Positions 6,162 through 59,537 of a stretch of DNA of 64,000 nucleotides are shown here, piece after piece (the stretch's first letter is position 1; every line of letters starts with the position of its first letter). This DNA is from Candidatus Hodarchaeum mangrovi. Lineage in GTDB: Archaea > Asgardarchaeota > Heimdallarchaeia > Hodarchaeales > Hodarchaeaceae. Location of the stretch: the NCBI GenBank assembly GCA_016839515.1, contig JAEOUE010000197.1, positions 1 to 64,000 on the forward strand, given 5' to 3'. The translations under genes were made by a program, and so were the position numbers. The notes under the pieces were generated by a model that saw nothing but the letters and a program-made list of their open reading frames with translations, did not search any database and was not told where the DNA came from.

Positions 6162-6542
6162 ATAAAATCACTGTTTGTTCTTAAATTATAAATTTTGTCT
6201 AATTAGATATTTAAAATGTTCTATCTGTCTTTCTACAATATTTTTAATTGGATAATTTGCGTTATAAATTAAATTCAGCTTTTTTGTATTAAAAATGTTG
6301 GAAGATATAAATTATACAAAATCACTCATTGAAATAAAAAAAAGCCAAGACTTGAAAAAAGTTATATGAGACTGATCTCAATCTTCCTACCAAATGTAAT
6401 TCTTCTATTATTAATAGATAAAAATGAACAATTATTTTAATCAAGGCAAATGAATTCTCTTTCTAGTCTCAAAAACTAGAAATATTTCCTTCCTTTAAAT
6501 TAAAATTAATCAAATACAATATATAATGGGGAAATAAACCTA

Positions 6543-9095
6543 ATGAGTGAATTAAAATCCCAACATGATTACTTTCTATTAAGCACAGTTTATGATGCTG
6601 AATCAAATGGAGCTGGAATTAAATTATTTGATGTTTCTAGCCAAAAAGTAATTTATTTCTTAGATCCTTATGGGCATGAACCATATTGTTATAGTTTAGA
6701 ACCATTTTCAGATCTGAAAGCAATTGAAAAAGAATTTCCCCCTAATACAATCAAGAGAATAATTACTACTAATAAAAAGGATATCTTAAATAATACTATT
6801 ATCAATCCTACTCAGATTGTAACTGTTACCCCGAGCGAAGTACCTAAAGTTCGGGATATCTTAAAAACACATGGTTGGGAAACTTGGGAGTCAAGAATAA
6901 AATATCACCGAAATTGGTTATATGATACACAATTAGTTCCAGGGAGAAAGTATTGGTGGGATGAGGTTAATAGGAAATTTATTTCCCCTCAAAGTATAAG
7001 TGAGGGATTGGAGATACCTACTCCTGTTATAGAAAATTTAGCACAATATTCAGGATTAATCCAAGTATTTCAAGATGATTTTCTTCAAGAAATTCCTGAC
7101 CTTCCTATTGTAGCTTGTGATATAGAAACTGAGTATGAGGAAGGTCAGATTCCCCAATCTAGCGATCCTAAATTCCCAGTAATTTGCATTTGTATGTCTG
7201 ATAACAAAAATAATGAAATAGCTTTGATCCTTTCACGGAAAAACATAGAAAAAGGAGAAAGTTGGGTTGAGGTTTCACAAGATCTAAGGGTTGAGTCTTT
7301 TGATGATGAAAAATTACTTTTAAAACGAGCATTTGAGATATTAAAGAAATATTCTGTAATTTGTACTTTTAATGGTGATAATTTCGATTTTCCATATCTT
7401 CATGCAAGAGCAAGACATCTAAAGATTAGTAAATCGAGCCCCATTCTTTGGAACAGAAGAGCAAAAGAATGTAATTTTCGAAATGCTATTCATCTGGATT
7501 TATATCGTTTTTTTCATAATGTAGCAATAAAAACTTATGCGTTTGGAAATAGATATCAAGAAGAGACTTTAGATGCCGTTGCTTCAGCATTGCTAGGAGT
7601 TGGAAAAATTCCTCTGAATAAAGGAATAGCTGAATTAACAGAATGGGAGTTAATAAGATATTGTTTAAGAGACGCCCGAATAACAAGAGATCTCATCTTG
7701 TATGATAACAATACTCCATTAAATCTGATATTTATACTTGCTAGAATTTCAAGAATGCCAATTGATGATCTTGTACGTACAAGTGTTTCAAATTGGGTAC
7801 AAAGCCTATTTTACCATGAACACCGTCGAAGAGGTTATTTCATCCCCAATCAAAGTGATATTCATCTATTAAAAGGTGGTGGAACTAGTACAGAAGCAAT
7901 AATCAAGGGAAAGAAGTACAAAGGTGCTAAAGTAATAGATCCTGTTCCTGGTATTCATTTTAATGTTGCAGTATTGGACTTTGCTTCACTGTATCCCTCT
8001 ATTATTGGGACTAAAAACCTCAGCTATGAAACTTTACTATGCAATCATGTTGAATGTAAAGAAAATATAGTCCCACAAACTAGCTACTGGGTTTGTAATA
8101 AGAATCGTGGGATTATGGCTGACATAATTGGATTTATAAAAGATATTCGTGTGATGTGGCTTAAACCTGCTTCCAAGGAGGAATTGGGCCGAAAAAACTT
8201 TTTCCAAATACTCGAAAGGAGTCTGAAAGTTTTGATCAATGCCTCGTATGGTGTCCTAGGAAGTGATCGATTCCCGTTGTATTGTTTACCCGTTGCTGAC
8301 TCTACAACTGCTTTTGGTCGTGATGCAATAAACAAGACTATTGAAAAAGCTGAAAGTTTAAACATTACAGTTTTATATGGAGATACAGATTCAGTCTTTC
8401 TTCTTTCACCTCCTAAAAAGAAAATTAATGAGATTATACAATGGAGTAAAAAAGAATTAGAAGTAGGACTTGAAATGGAAAAAGTATACAAATATGTAGT
8501 CCTTTCTCAACGGAAAAAGAATTATTTCGGAGTTTATGAGGATGGAAGTGTTGAGGTTAAGGGATTAATGGGTAAAAAACGAAATACTCCTCCATTTTTA
8601 CAGGATGGATTTAATGAGGTATTGCATATATTATCTCAAGTAAATAATCTTGAAGAGTTTTCAAAGGCAAAAGAAAAAGTTAAAGGGTTAATAAAAACTA
8701 TTTATGTGAAATTGGATAAGAATCAATACTCTCCAGAGGATCTCTCAATAACTATGCAGCTTACTCAACCTTTAGGATCATACAAAGTAAATTCACAACA
8801 TGTAAAAGCAGCTCGTCAGCTAGAAAATCATTATCAATCTCGATTTATGTCAAAACACAATGGAAAAAAATATAATGAGGGATTTATCAAAGCAGGACAA
8901 TTAATTAGGTTTGTTAAAACAAAGGAAGGTGATCATGTAACTCCTGTTGAGTTAATGACGAAAGATATCAAACCTGATGTGAAAGCATACAAATCAATGA
9001 TTGAATCAACATTTGATCAGCTATTGGGAGCTCTAGATATAAATCTCGAAGAACTTGCTTCTGGTCAGATAAATCTGATGGAATTTTTTAACTAA
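6543..9095 (+). CDS. polB: Family B DNA polymerase with 3'-5' exonuclease
   Basis: Exo I VACDIETEYEEG, Exo II TFNGDNFDFPYLHAR, Exo III YCLRDARIT; Pol motif A LDFASLYPSII, motif B KVLINASYGVLG, motif C YGDTDSVFL all intact. Confidence 0.95.
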   Translation: MSELKSQHDYFLLSTVYDAESNGAGIKLFDVSSQKVIYFLDPYGHEPYCYSLEPFSDLKAIEKEFPPNTIKRIITTNKKDILNNTIINPTQIVTVTPSEVPKVRDILKTHGWETWESRIKYHRNWLYDTQLVPGRKYWWDEVNRKFISPQSISEGLEIPTPVIENLAQYSGLIQVFQDDFLQEIPDLPIVACDIETEYEEGQIPQSSDPKFPVICICMSDNKNNEIALILSRKNIEKGESWVEVSQDLRVESFDDEKLLLKRAFEILKKYSVICTFNGDNFDFPYLHARARHLKISKSSPILWNRRAKECNFRNAIHLDLYRFFHNVAIKTYAFGNRYQEETLDAVASALLGVGKIPLNKGIAELTEWELIRYCLRDARITRDLILYDNNTPLNLIFILARISRMPIDDLVRTSVSNWVQSLFYHEHRRRGYFIPNQSDIHLLKGGGTSTEAIIKGKKYKGAKVIDPVPGIHFNVAVLDFASLYPSIIGTKNLSYETLLCNHVECKENIVPQTSYWVCNKNRGIMADIIGFIKDIRVMWLKPASKEELGRKNFFQILERSLKVLINASYGVLGSDRFPLYCLPVADSTTAFGRDAINKTIEKAESLNITVLYGDTDSVFLLSPPKKKINEIIQWSKKELEVGLEMEKVYKYVVLSQRKKNYFGVYEDGSVEVKGLMGKKRNTPPFLQDGFNEVLHILSQVNNLEEFSKAKEKVKGLIKTIYVKLDKNQYSPEDLSITMQLTQPLGSYKVNSQHVKAARQLENHYQSRFMSKHNGKKYNEGFIKAGQLIRFVKTKEGDHVTPVELMTKDIKPDVKAYKSMIESTFDQLLGALDINLEELASGQINLMEFFN

Positions 9096-20270: not shown

Positions 20271-20376
20271 GCCACCGTGGCTTAGCTAGGTTATAGCGCC
20301 TCCTTGGTATTTGTTCCTAGCTTGGTAATGGCAAACAATCAGGAGGATGTCGCGAGTTCAAATCTCGCCGGTGGCT
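20271..20376 (+). tRNA. tRNA-Thr(GGU) with a ~31-nt intron (about 20310..20340) in the anticodon loop
   Basis: Acceptor GCCACCG/CGGTGGC, T-arm GCGAG-TTCAAAT-CTCGC, anticodon stem CCTCC/GGAGG with loop TTGGTA|intron|A; discriminator T. Splice choices that keep 4-6 loop nt in the 5' exon all give anticodon GGT. Confidence 0.85.
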
Positions 20377-53825: not shown

Positions 53826-56800
53826 TTAGAAAAGAGTTGTAGGACGTAATCCAATCTCAAATACCTGACGCTTATTTATTTCTAGTAATTTTATCCAAGA
53901 GTCTAAATATTGCGAAATACTTGAAGCATAATTTTCTTCTAGTTGCGTTATAATTTGTGTGTATCGCAATACCCAGCCTTCAGAAAGAGTTAACCCGATC
54001 TTTTCTTGTCCACAGGATGAACATTTACCTGATAGAGGGATACGTCGGAAGTTTCGGTTACATCTTAGACATCTAAAAGGTTGAGAGAAGAATTTTTCTA
54101 AAGAAGAGTTATATTTTTCTAAAAAATCGTTTTCTAATATTTTTTCAACAAACTCACTCTCTTGAGTACCCTGAATTTTTTTAAGGATTGAAAGACTTGA
54201 TTGAATCTTTGAAATAAGTTTACTCTGTTTAAGCGGATTACTAATATTAAATCCTGAGATGTTGTCAATCTTATGAATTTTTGGATAAGAGTAATTTAAA
54301 TTAGAAATTTTGTAGACCAGAAGATCTTTTTTGGTAGGATTACTTTTTAATTCTCTGAAAAATAGTAGATTCATAGGAATGGATTCACTCATTGCATAGA
54401 ATGACAAATCTTCCCAAGAATCTGGCATATTCAAAACCATAGGGACATCCATTGTTCCCCCTCTAGTAGTGGGAATAAATTCTTCAGAAAAATTAATTAA
54501 AACATCAAGTAGAAGAGTAAACGAGTCTATGTCTCCATTACAGTTACGTCCCTTTAATTTATGCCAAACTGGATGTGCATAAAGAACATCAGTTGTGGTA
54601 GAACCAATAATTCGTCCGATCACTCCAACCTTAGAAAAAGGGGAAATTCCGACAATCAAAGAACCCATTAGATCTTGGAAGGATTTTAATCTGAAATAGG
54701 CTGGCAAATCGTAAAATTCAGTTAATTCATCATCAATAAATTTAGTTAGTTTTAAAAGAAATTTTTCAGATGACTTACTAATAATAACATCATATGGAAA
54801 GAGTTCTATTAATTGATTTTCATTTTCTAGCTGCTTTCCTTCAATATCATGGTCATAACCAAGACGGATAAGATCTTCAATCGATGTTCCTACTTCCAGA
54901 GGTTTGAAACATAATAAGGGGGCATTTGTAGTATCAAACCGACTAGTTCCATCTTTATAGACATATATATCATGTCTTGCTCTCAAAACACCTTTGTTGA
55001 GATTCTCTGGAATTTTATTTTTAGTATTAAGATAAGAAACCGCTTTAAATTTTTCTAAATTTGAAATATCACTTTTATTTACCTTTAGCAGTTCCTCAAA
55101 GGCTACAGAATGTGGTTTAGAAGGAACACCATAATTTCCACATACAGGACAATTTTTTGTTTCAAAAGTATGGTTATTTCTGCACAAAAGTTTTTGAGTT
55201 GTTTCTTGATTACAGTCTGGGCAGTAAACATAATAAACTGTTTTTTGACAGGACGAACAGTATCGGTTCGAAAGGTTAAGAATTACTGCCTTTTCTTTTA
55301 TTACTTTTAATAAATTTCTTTGAGACCCTCCTAAGGATCCGATGGGAAAAAGAACGTGAGATGGAGGATTTATATGACGAGGTTCAGCTTTTTCTACTCG
55401 AACTATCTGAGTACCAAGTCTACGTTTTGATTTTGATCTTATTGGTACTCCGATTAATTTAGATACAATTTCCTCAGTCTCATCCTCAATGGAGAGATTA
55501 TTTATTATTTGATCTAAATCAAGATTTTCATCTTTTAAACGAGTTAAAATGTGCTGAAAATTATCAAATTCAATCCTTTCATTACTAACAGAAAAAGGAA
55601 CACCTAAAAAACTTAGAATCCTTTTCATTTCATCATTATTGGGAATTTTTGGTTCTTCATTCTTAATAATATGGTCTAATAAAAGAATTAAATCACTAAT
55701 AGCTATATTATTCCAATTAAAAGAAAATTTAGGGTGCAAAGGCACTTTTGTTAATTTAGATATCAAATAAACTTTTTCAGGATTCAATTTAAAGACTGAT
55801 GGATTATCAAGACAACTTTTTAAAATATTGAAGTCAACAGATAAAGCTCGTGCTAAATTTTGAATCGAACCAAATTTCCTTATTGAGGCATTAATCACCT
55901 CCATTGCCCACCATTCCTCGGTCCAGGAAGATATATCAAAAGCTTCCTGATCAGGAATATCATCAGGACAAAGTAATAATTCTCCTAATTCCCAGATTTG
56001 TATGATTCTATTTTCATATTCTTTAAATGTTTCAATATTGTCAATCCGTACTAAAGAGCCATCTTCAATTGTTACTAAAGGACCTGTTAAACTAGAAACA
56101 GGAAGTGTTATTAAATTTCGTTCTATTAAGTCAATTTTTATTGACGTTCCTGGCGAAATGATTTTTAAAAGCATCATTGTCGCTGGATTTACACCAACTG
56201 AACCAAATCCAGTATTACGTGTGCGTCCATACCTTAATTGAAACCCCCCTGGACCAGATGATTTTGATAACAATGGTTGAGTACCTCGAATTTCTCGATC
56301 ACCAAAAACTAGTTTATTCTTTTTTACAAAATGAAAACTTCTATCTAACCAGTTCCATTCTGGAATTTCAGCTAAAATTTTATATCGAGTAATCAGGTTT
56401 ATATTATCCATAAAACGTTCTAATGCTACACACATTCCCATTCTTAATTGGTTTGATAGAGGTGGAAGATTTCTATATTTAACAACCTCAATTCTTTCAT
56501 AGGATTCACCTGAGATTTCAATACCAATATTTTGGAGTATTAATTTCGCTAAATCCTTTTTCAAATCAGGAATTCGATCACTTAGCTCATAATAAAGCTC
56601 TAATTCCTCAATATATCTTCCTATCATTTCAGGTGTAGCGTTAAATCGATTTAGATGCAAGATTCTGCGTAGGTAATCCGCAATTAGAACAACTAATCCT
56701 ATTACTTCCCCAGGGACATAACGAATAGTATTGGAAAAAAAAATTGTCAAATGTGAAGTCTTTTCTGAAATAGCTATTTTTGGAATAGCCTCTTCGGGAA

Positions 56801-57146
56801 CAGAAATCAATCCTTGACTTAAGATAACACATGCGCTTTGGAGTGCAATTAGAATTAGCTCCTCTCGAGGCAATTTTAAATAATAACCGTTTACTATCTG
56901 TTTGGCTATTTCTGCTGCAAGTAAAAGTGAGTTCTCATGGAAAACGATGTTTGATGGCAAATTTTCTTCTAAACCAGCAATATTTATGATTGAGGAAATT
57001 CTTAACTTTACAGAATATGTTATTATCGATTCTACGTTACATCTTGGGTCATATTTCCGATTTCGTGCTTGTTGTGCTAAAGAAAATTGATTGTTCAATG
57101 ATTTTTTTATCTGTGTAACATAATTGGTGAATTCTGGAAAAATCAT
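53826..57146 (-). CDS. polC: DNA polymerase D large subunit (DP2) with altered active-site motif
   Basis: GFGSVGVNPATMMLL..., PPSHVLFPIGSLGGSQRNL, zinc modules, VGVIGRIIGSTTTDVLYAHPVWHKLKGRNCNGDIDSFTLLLDVLINFSEEFIPTTRGGTMDVPMVL, C-terminal CLRCNRNFRRIPLSGKCSSCGQEK. Confidence 0.93.
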   Translation of the reverse strand: MIFPEFTNYVTQIKKSLNNQFSLAQQARNRKYDPRCNVESIITYSVKLRISSIINIAGLEENLPSNIVFHENSLLLAAEIAKQIVNGYYLKLPREELILIALQSACVILSQGLISVPEEAIPKIAISEKTSHLTIFFSNTIRYVPGEVIGLVVLIADYLRRILHLNRFNATPEMIGRYIEELELYYELSDRIPDLKKDLAKLILQNIGIEISGESYERIEVVKYRNLPPLSNQLRMGMCVALERFMDNINLITRYKILAEIPEWNWLDRSFHFVKKNKLVFGDREIRGTQPLLSKSSGPGGFQLRYGRTRNTGFGSVGVNPATMMLLKIISPGTSIKIDLIERNLITLPVSSLTGPLVTIEDGSLVRIDNIETFKEYENRIIQIWELGELLLCPDDIPDQEAFDISSWTEEWWAMEVINASIRKFGSIQNLARALSVDFNILKSCLDNPSVFKLNPEKVYLISKLTKVPLHPKFSFNWNNIAISDLILLLDHIIKNEEPKIPNNDEMKRILSFLGVPFSVSNERIEFDNFQHILTRLKDENLDLDQIINNLSIEDETEEIVSKLIGVPIRSKSKRRLGTQIVRVEKAEPRHINPPSHVLFPIGSLGGSQRNLLKVIKEKAVILNLSNRYCSSCQKTVYYVYCPDCNQETTQKLLCRNNHTFETKNCPVCGNYGVPSKPHSVAFEELLKVNKSDISNLEKFKAVSYLNTKNKIPENLNKGVLRARHDIYVYKDGTSRFDTTNAPLLCFKPLEVGTSIEDLIRLGYDHDIEGKQLENENQLIELFPYDVIISKSSEKFLLKLTKFIDDELTEFYDLPAYFRLKSFQDLMGSLIVGISPFSKVGVIGRIIGSTTTDVLYAHPVWHKLKGRNCNGDIDSFTLLLDVLINFSEEFIPTTRGGTMDVPMVLNMPDSWEDLSFYAMSESIPMNLLFFRELKSNPTKKDLLVYKISNLNYSYPKIHKIDNISGFNISNPLKQSKLISKIQSSLSILKKIQGTQESEFVEKILENDFLEKYNSSLEKFFSQPFRCLRCNRNFRRIPLSGKCSSCGQEKIGLTLSEGWVLRYTQIITQLEENYASSISQYLDSWIKLLEINKRQVFEIGLRPTTLF

Positions 57147-57850
57147 GAAAGAATCCTAATCCCATTAGGTAAAGTTACGTTAAGTATACCAATATTATTT
57201 ATTGAAGTAAGTTTATCGAAATAGAACACTCCAGTTTGGTTTAAATATGGATTGGGTATCAATGGTATAGTTCCATTTAAAATAAAGATACTATAGGGAT
57301 TTGTTGGCTGAAAAGATTCTCTTCGTTTACTAAAAATAAAGATCTGATTATCAAATACTTCAACACGAGCATGGAATACTAAATTAAATATCTCTTCTAT
57401 AGTTAGGGAAGTCGTCAAGCTTGTTAATTTTAATTTAAAGTTTGCTGAAACTTCACTAGAATAAATATTTCCATTGGTCACATTTGTATATGGTGGTTGT
57501 TTTGCATTCATTTGAAAAGTTTCTTCAATAAATGAGAATTCCGCTAGTATACCTCTGGTTATTGCCAAATATTCTAAATTTTTCAAAAAATCTTTAATAG
57601 ACAGTTTAGCATTTTCTTGAGACATTCCTGAGTTATTTTGCGTGTATTTGGATAAAATATATTCTAAAAAGTTTTGAATTTCCCTTTTAGAGTCGAAATA
57701 TGGTTCTGAGAGAGATTCTCTATTAAATTCAAGTTGATTTACTTGTATGTTCATTAAAGCTGCAGCCATTGAAACAATATAAATCGCTATAAGCATTGTT
57801 GCTAAAATAAACATTTGCCCCTGTCTTGATTTATTAAATAACTTCTGCAT
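57143..57850 (-). CDS. Pilin-like protein with class III signal peptide
   Basis: MQKLFNKSRQGQMFILATMLIAIYIVSMAAALM: basic n-region, G|Q junction, hydrophobic helix. Confidence 0.72.
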   Translation of the reverse strand: MQKLFNKSRQGQMFILATMLIAIYIVSMAAALMNIQVNQLEFNRESLSEPYFDSKREIQNFLEYILSKYTQNNSGMSQENAKLSIKDFLKNLEYLAITRGILAEFSFIEETFQMNAKQPPYTNVTNGNIYSSEVSANFKLKLTSLTTSLTIEEIFNLVFHARVEVFDNQIFIFSKRRESFQPTNPYSIFILNGTIPLIPNPYLNQTGVFYFDKLTSINNIGILNVTLPNGIRILS

Positions 57851-58372
57851 CTATATTTTCTCCCATAAATAAAGTTTAACTAAATAGCCATTCTGAAATT
57901 GACCATATTCTGCAGATGTGTATGATCCAAGATGATAATTAATAATTACTCCCTCTCCTCCAGTTTGAAGTGCTGCAATATCTGCAGCTGAGCCTAAAAT
58001 CGTGTTATATGAATCAGAAGGCACTCCATTGACTAAATCATGAGCAATAAGTATAAAACCATAATTATCACTCAAAATAGAAGTAATATAGGCATCTAGA
58101 AGACTAAGAAAATAGGTTGCTTCATCTGAATAAATAGGATTGAATTTAAGATAAATAGAAGGTCTAAGATAGCCTGCTTCGTCAGCTGTGCTTAAAATGT
58201 CATAGCCAGTTCGATCTAGAAATTTATATGATTGAGGAGGATTTAAGCTTTGGTCCGCAGCATTAATAAGCAATAGAGCGAGAACTAACATTAAAGAAAC
58301 AGCTACCAATGTTTCAGCAATTTGTAACTGACCACGCTGTCTCCTTTTTTTTAAATATTTCATTTTACTCAC
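57851..58372 (-). CDS. Pilin-like protein with class III signal peptide
   Basis: MSKMKYLKKRRQRGQLQIAETLVAVSLMLVLALLLI: RG|Q junction with E at about +5 and hydrophobic helix. Confidence 0.8.
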   Translation of the reverse strand: MSKMKYLKKRRQRGQLQIAETLVAVSLMLVLALLLINAADQSLNPPQSYKFLDRTGYDILSTADEAGYLRPSIYLKFNPIYSDEATYFLSLLDAYITSILSDNYGFILIAHDLVNGVPSDSYNTILGSAADIAALQTGGEGVIINYHLGSYTSAEYGQFQNGYLVKLYLWEKI

Positions 58373-59537
58373 TCCAAAGAGTTATTTGACATCGCATTAA
58401 TAAACCACGGACAATCACAGGATAAGTTTTACTCAATAAAGCTTTGATTCTAATATTATCACTTATATGACCCAAAGTATTATAATACTGTCCTTGTTCC
58501 TCTGTTTTATCCAAAATAGCTGGATAAGTTCCAATACCAACTCTATAATAATCCGTATATTGTGAAATACTAAGAAGTATGACAAGGCCAGTTTCTGGTA
58601 GTAATATTGTTTCATTTCCATCCCAAGATATAGACCCTAAATCTAGAAAATGTGATGAATATGAATGTAATGTATCTTTGTAGATTATCGAAATGAAATG
58701 ATTAACAGGTGTATCTGTTGTAGGTAAAGTATCGCTTACAAGCAAAGCTGAAGAATTAATGCCACCTCCCCAAATAGTCGTACTTGAAGAAGATCCGATA
58801 AAAGCTTGAGGAAAAACAGAGTCTATGCTTCCCCAATTTACACCCCAAAGAACACCTGTCTCGGCTACTACCAAGATGACATGTTGTCCATCTGGATCAT
58901 TAAAATGCGGAATCTCATACGTATAAGAACTCCCTCCAGTAGAATTCGTGAGTAGATCCTCTCCGTATAGCAATTGTGCATCTTTTAAGTTAACAACTAT
59001 TACTTTAGAATTAGCTTTAGGGATTGGAGTATTGTAAGGATTTGTAACAACAAATTCTACTCTATTATGGGTTTGATTTACACTGATTAGAGTAAGAGAT
59101 ATCTTTAGGCTTTGTTGAAGGGAGATTTGAAATTCTCTCTTTCCAGATAATTTTATAACATCTTTCAAAGTTTCATAATCATAATTATTCATTCCAGAGA
59201 TAGTAGAAATTCCCGTTCCACTAATAAGACGAGCAATTTTGGCAGCATCCAGAGCAAAATATCCATAATAATGACTAGTGGCTAAACCGAAATTATTAGG
59301 TAAATTTTTTAGATATCCCCAATCATCTGTTCCTGATTCCTGTAATATCATACGGCTAAAATTGTCGAGATCATCATATGAGATTGTCCCTACATCAGTA
59401 CGATTAATATTAGATTGAATGTTAATTATAATAAGGAGTAATTGTGAAAGCATTAACAAGAAAAGGAAAAGACTGATGACAAAGTCCACAGCTCTCATTT
59501 GTCCTTTTCGTTTTTTGTTTAAAAGTTGAAATATCAT
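58365..59537 (-). CDS. Large pilin-like/minor pilin protein with class III signal peptide
   Basis: MIFQLLNKKRKGQMRAVDFVISLFLFLLMLSQLLLI: KG|Q junction, hydrophobic helix, extended extracellular-type domain. Confidence 0.75.
   Translation of the reverse strand: MIFQLLNKKRKGQMRAVDFVISLFLFLLMLSQLLLIIINIQSNINRTDVGTISYDDLDNFSRMILQESGTDDWGYLKNLPNNFGLATSHYYGYFALDAAKIARLISGTGISTISGMNNYDYETLKDVIKLSGKREFQISLQQSLKISLTLISVNQTHNRVEFVVTNPYNTPIPKANSKVIVVNLKDAQLLYGEDLLTNSTGGSSYTYEIPHFNDPDGQHVILVVAETGVLWGVNWGSIDSVFPQAFIGSSSSTTIWGGGINSSALLVSDTLPTTDTPVNHFISIIYKDTLHSYSSHFLDLGSISWDGNETILLPETGLVILLSISQYTDYYRVGIGTYPAILDKTEEQGQYYNTLGHISDNIRIKALLSKTYPVIVRGLLMRCQITLWSE

Follow-up and report, generated by a model that had tools for sequence, protein, structure and literature searches.

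A PolD large subunit predicted to be non-catalytic is retained across Hodarchaeales

The DP2 locus and its predicted fold

The window analysed here, a 64,000-nucleotide stretch of the Candidatus Hodarchaeum mangrovi genome, carries on its minus strand (positions 53826–57146) a complete, uninterrupted open reading frame of 1106 amino acids. Pfam, NCBIfam and the model fold identify its product as DP2-like, a predicted non-catalytic large subunit of DNA polymerase D (PolD). The Pfam models PolC_DP2_N, PolC_DP2_central and PolC_DP2_cat all match the full-length protein far above their cut-offs (E values of 2e-38 to 2e-79), and NCBIfam TIGR00354 (polC) also exceeds its cut-off. The AlphaFold model (pLDDT 87, pTM 0.87) displays the two-barrel PolD fold, and its best structural match is the DP2 subunit of P. 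abyssi PolD (TM 0.86). In this model, which is predicted with confidence, the whole PolD fold is retained.

The window DP2 shares with P. abyssi PolD DP2 (PDB 9f2a, 8ppt and 6t8h) the complete fold, the three Pfam domains, the zinc modules and the DP1-docking CTD, but lacks the catalytic Asp, E873, R866, H837 and part of the GRPEK motif. In the alignment, the Zn-III module with its DP1-docking residues, of the pattern C..C....RR.P....C..C (positions 54009–54074, minus strand), is intact: C1026, C1029, R1034, R1035, P1037, C1042 and C1045 are each kept in 100% of the 11 DP2s of the window's family. The Zn-III and RRxP region of DP2 serves as the interface with DP1 (PMC6355029). At the C-terminal end, a tail terminating in RPTTLF (positions 53829–53891, minus strand) replaces the PIP-like, PCNA-interacting motif, as judged by tail comparison and by the identity figures given below.

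The DP2 gene is directly preceded, at positions 57143–59537 on the minus strand, by a row of three small genes that carry pilin-like class III signal motifs (RGQMFILATM, RGQLQIAETL and KGQMRAVDFV) and have no Pfam match. Most genomes of the genus repeat this gene order, and in them CBS and NFACT genes lie on the opposite side. Elsewhere in the window, a tRNA gene of 106 bases (positions 20271–20376, plus strand; Rfam) is long enough for an intron.

Loss of catalytic residues in the window and in related genomes

The catalytic loop of the window DP2 (amino acids 868–874; positions 54525–54545, minus strand) reads NCNGDID, in place of NCDGDED in active enzymes, and an AAT codon at positions 54537–54539 (minus strand) stands where that of the first catalytic Asp (D870) is expected. 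The change from NCDGD to NCNGD described in the original prediction is thereby confirmed. Our comparison drew on 48 reference DP2s with canonical motifs, from Asgard, DPANN, Thermoplasmatota, Bathyarchaeota and other archaea; 'active' refers here to the presence of these motifs, a label taken from sequence and not from assayed activity. Position 870, which the original prediction had proposed to examine in related genomes, is Asp in 48 of the 48 active DP2s, in none of the 11 DP2s of the window's family (the window and ten named records, with the partial G011 sequence read separately) and in neither of the two from the sister family. The degenerate DPBB-1 motif, RRLGTQIVRVEKAEPRHINPPSHVLFP (amino acids 575–601; positions 55344–55424, minus strand), aligns with GARMGRPEKAK of active enzymes, and its GRPEK block reads GTQIVRVEKAE. 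This motif had also been called degraded, and it is: R580, M581, G582 and P584 are lost, yet R583, E585 and K586 are kept. In all members of the window's family, 21 of the 95 columns that are at least 95% invariant in the 48 active DP2s have been lost, among them R580, M581, G582, P584, H837, R866, D870 and E873; the invariant zinc cysteines are kept.

Some of these observations would suit a PolD that is still an active polymerase, perhaps slower or of lower fidelity, using D872, D874 and Asn870. The second catalytic Asp, D872, is kept in the window and in four other DP2s of its family, K586, R867 and D874 are retained in all 11, and the modelled fold is intact; in principle, weak activity might persist where Asn870 stands together with D872 and D874, as it does in the window's genome. 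We nevertheless regard continued polymerase activity as quite improbable. Alanine scanning of Pyrococcus PolD found both Asp residues of the loop to be critical for polymerization (PMC4996933), and D872 is replaced by N, A or V in the other six of the 11. Moreover, the loop has become TANGDID or VFLGAV in the sister family, E873, R866 and H837 are lost throughout the window's family, as is the RMG.P part of GRPEK, and the PCNA motif is gone. We predict from these residues that the window DP2 is a PolD large subunit that has lost its polymerase chemistry; with several catalytic residues gone, the earlier description of a probably inactive DP2 is well supported.

DP2 was detected in 13 of the 14 Hodarchaeales genomes, each with exactly one copy, and all 13 were tallied without the first catalytic Asp; G009 (1.4 Mb) had no DP2 match. 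Motifs were read in these 13 DP2s and in one further record, WORE3. The loop is NCNGDID in six, SCNGATD, SCNGVTD, SCNGAND or SCNGVSD in five, and NCSGNID in one; the two sister-family genomes have one or the other of the two forms given above. Heimdallarchaeia of other families have NCDGDED, NADGDED or NCDSDED together with GARMGRPEK. The window itself falls within Hodarchaeales, and close homologues of its DP2 are found in public genomes labelled Candidatus Hodarchaeota or Heimdallarchaeota. In the DP2 tree the dead sequences form one clade; their branches are long, and we made no use of its deep placement.

The incompleteness of the window's genome (91% complete, in 348 contigs) could be taken to favour an error of sequencing or assembly, or a paralogue whose intact DP2 counterpart the assembly missed, but we give these explanations practically no credence. 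Sequencing error is ruled out because independently assembled Hodarchaeales MAGs carry the same change, and the substitution is real, as had been argued from the window. The suggestion of a non-catalytic paralogue is not supported: a search for a second DP2 with the N-terminal and catalytic Pfam models found none in the window's genome, and the gene is single-copy in all 13 genomes of the order, including a single-contig one that is 96% complete.

Five further Asgard genomes that scored low for DP2 (G054, G099, G109, G179 and G218) were considered as dead lineages and rejected: their matches end at contig or frame ends, and CDGDED is intact wherever the motif is covered, so that no additional dead lineage was found. 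In genomes of the class with two DP2 matches, an insert such as an intein seems to interrupt an active DP2; in the single case read from end to end, an intact motif surrounds the insert.

Selective constraint and the DP1 partner

The dN/dS ratio, which the original prediction had put forward as a test for purifying selection, is about 0.11–0.27 in simple Nei–Gojobori estimates. Hodarchaeales DP2 pairs at dS of 1.1–1.5 gave 0.11–0.12, and a single closely related pair (dS 0.06) gave 0.27; the values for closely related active DP2s are 0.09–0.14. The window's family (n = 11) was also compared with one active family of equal divergence, overall identity being 0.56 in both. Identity in the catalytic loop is 0.70 in Hodarchaeales versus 1.00 in the active family, whereas it is 0.66 versus 0.57 in the CTD and 0.70 versus 0.45 in the C-terminal tail. 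The Hodarchaeales tail is GPRPTTLI/F or a close variant, and the terminal PIP-like motif of most active DP2s is gone. At the level of sequence, these comparisons show that the loss is centred on catalytic residues, and that constraint moved rather than vanished, under purifying selection.

The DP2s of the sister family are far more diverged (E values of 1e-23 and 6e-54, against about 1e-68 to 1e-85), as might be expected of a decaying relic heading for loss without a selected function. For DP2 such a fate seems very improbable, given the dN/dS values in the window's family, the unusual conservation of the CTD and tail, and a reading frame that is intact across this family except in one frameshifted assembly and in two genes cut by contig ends. 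The frameshifted case is G008, a single-contig assembly in which DP2 is split into two open reading frames, and the split may be a base-calling error.

A DP1 gene, which had also been proposed as something to look for, is present in the window's genome (G000:C295) and in nine more genomes of the genus (Pfam); a partial copy occurs in G006. Judged against the published list of metal ligands (PMC10721889), DP1 keeps six of the seven, and the catalytic His is kept in nine of the ten (loci L072–L080 and L105). Glu replaces the Asn ligand (N450 of P. abyssi) in 10 of 10, turning GNHD into GEHD (GERD in one of them), and the catalytic His is Arg in one; the exonuclease site of DP1 is therefore also altered. 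In neither sister-family genome did Pfam and profile search find a DP1, though a DP2 relic is present. A diverged DP1 was reported earlier in LC3, and that of B3 was judged possibly active (Kazlauskas et al. 2020, PMC7544198).

If DP1 were a stand-alone repair or editing exonuclease, the dead DP2 might be kept mainly to support it, as a DNA-holding clamp and not as a fork tether. The six metal ligands that DP1 retains, and its catalytic His, present in all but one of the ten, point in this direction, as do the conserved DP1-docking residues of DP2 and the possibly active B3 protein (PMC7544198). We consider this role unlikely, as the Asn ligand is Glu in every DP1, one DP1 has lost its catalytic His, and two genomes with a DP2 relic yielded no DP1.

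Three genomes from two other Asgard families (G061, G062 and G063; loci L199–L205; 91–96% complete) have a DP1-like gene and no detectable DP2, which suggests another loss of the PolD catalytic subunit.

B-family polymerases and the proposed scaffold role of DP2

The window's genome has four B-family polymerase genes (Pfam). The one in the window (positions 6510–9095, plus strand) is intact, with Pfam DNA_pol_B (2e-47) and exonuclease domains, an NCBIfam NF004417 match over cut-off, a DTDS motif C and a PIP-like end, QINLMEFF; these features make it a candidate synthesis partner. The B10 PolB (1461 amino acids, contig 34) has a CxxC..CxxC at its C-terminus and intact FDIE, DVTSMYPS, NSIYG and ELDTDGIW motifs, and in the PDB it is matched best by the catalytic subunits of eukaryotic Pol epsilon (1.7e-59; archaeal PolB about 2e-14). 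At an E value of 1e-20, B10 was found in 13 of 232 Asgard genomes, exactly the 13 with a dead DP2. Because these 13 genomes form one clade, B10 and the dead DP2 represent one shared evolutionary association and not 13 independent ones, and this association may be a single historical coincidence. With no other DP2 found and with active-looking PolBs, including the Pol-epsilon-like one, the proposal that the genome replicates with PolB is well supported. As further observations on these genes, a PolB2-like gene of the window's genome (G000:C47, L104) contains an intein, and the B10 genes of G004 (C130, L190) and G006 (C117, L192) are interrupted close to motif C or motif B by a large insertion, in each case likely to be an intein as well.

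Kazlauskas et al. (2020) described two MAGs, B3 and LC3, that lack an active DP2 and have B10, a sister of the catalytic half of Pol epsilon, and on this basis proposed that B10 allowed the inactivation of DP1 (PMC7544198). The present genomes are of the same lineage as this Heimdall_B3/LC3-like group: the B3_Heim record is among the loci found here, and the window's genome, as far as its sequence indicates, also combines the lack of an active DP2 with an epsilon-like B10 bearing a C-terminal zinc motif. Whereas the earlier report covered two MAGs, the association now extends to 13 genomes, all those of the order with a detectable DP2, and to it we add the selection test, the residue-wise pattern of loss, the loss of the PIP motif and the N-to-E change in DP1. 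A Pol epsilon homologue was subsequently reported only in Hodarchaeales (Eme et al. 2023, PMC10307638), and a 2025 analysis favours lateral transfer (PMC12395588). The order-wide scope, the shift in constraint and the exchange of the tail are, provisionally, new.

We think it likely that synthesis passed to B10, together with another PolB, and that DP2 has been retained as a scaffold for DP1 without catalytic function. A Pol-epsilon-like B10 would have been present in, or acquired by, the Hodarchaeales ancestor, and B10 and another PolB, perhaps that at positions 6510–9095 (plus strand), would then have taken over chain elongation. DP2 would subsequently have lost the metal-binding Asp, the neighbouring active-site residues and the PCNA-binding tail, changes that its present sequence records. 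The full-length, folded protein would stay because it would still dock DP1 through the Zn-III CTD and probably also hold further proteins of the fork. Even a PolD without catalysis could organize a fork, since Thermococcus DP1 associates with GINS (PMC6741145) and the region by which Pyrococcus DP2 contacts RPA lies apart from the active site (PMC11686378). The replacement of a metal ligand in DP1 itself speaks against this reading, and the scaffold role is doubtful at least in the sister family, whose DP2 is very diverged and in whose two genomes DP1 went undetected by profile search.

Archaeal PolB2/Dpo2 offers a parallel, as a polymerase predicted to be inactive yet retained; it differs in being a B-family enzyme and, according to its published description (PMC8764526), in acting as an extender in translesion synthesis, a caution that predicted inactivity can mislead. 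Eukaryotic Pol epsilon provides another analogy: there, the dead C-terminal module and the inactive B subunit (Dpb2/POLE2) tether the active half to the helicase. Both arrangements would pair an active epsilon-type PolB with a dead polymerase whose zinc CTD binds a DP1-type subunit. They differ in that Pol epsilon has its dead PolB module fused with its active one, whereas the dead module of Hodarchaeales is a PolD encoded by a separate gene. By this analogy, the dead DP1–DP2 might tentatively be pictured as a structural replisome subunit holding B10 on the helicase, either parallel to the Pol epsilon tether of eukaryotes or intermediate towards it; we find this doubtful, though worth considering.

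PolD serves most archaea as their main replicase. Eukaryotes lack it and have retained no more than relatives of the DP1 subunit and of the C-terminal zinc domain. The route by which B-family polymerases replaced PolD is an open question, and Hodarchaeales are a proposed, and disputed, sister order of eukaryotes within Asgard archaea. Their state, in which PolD chemistry is predicted to be gone, the protein scaffold is still under selection and a Pol-epsilon-like enzyme is present, means that a route in which the replicase was replaced before it was lost can be tested directly, using a few purified proteins.
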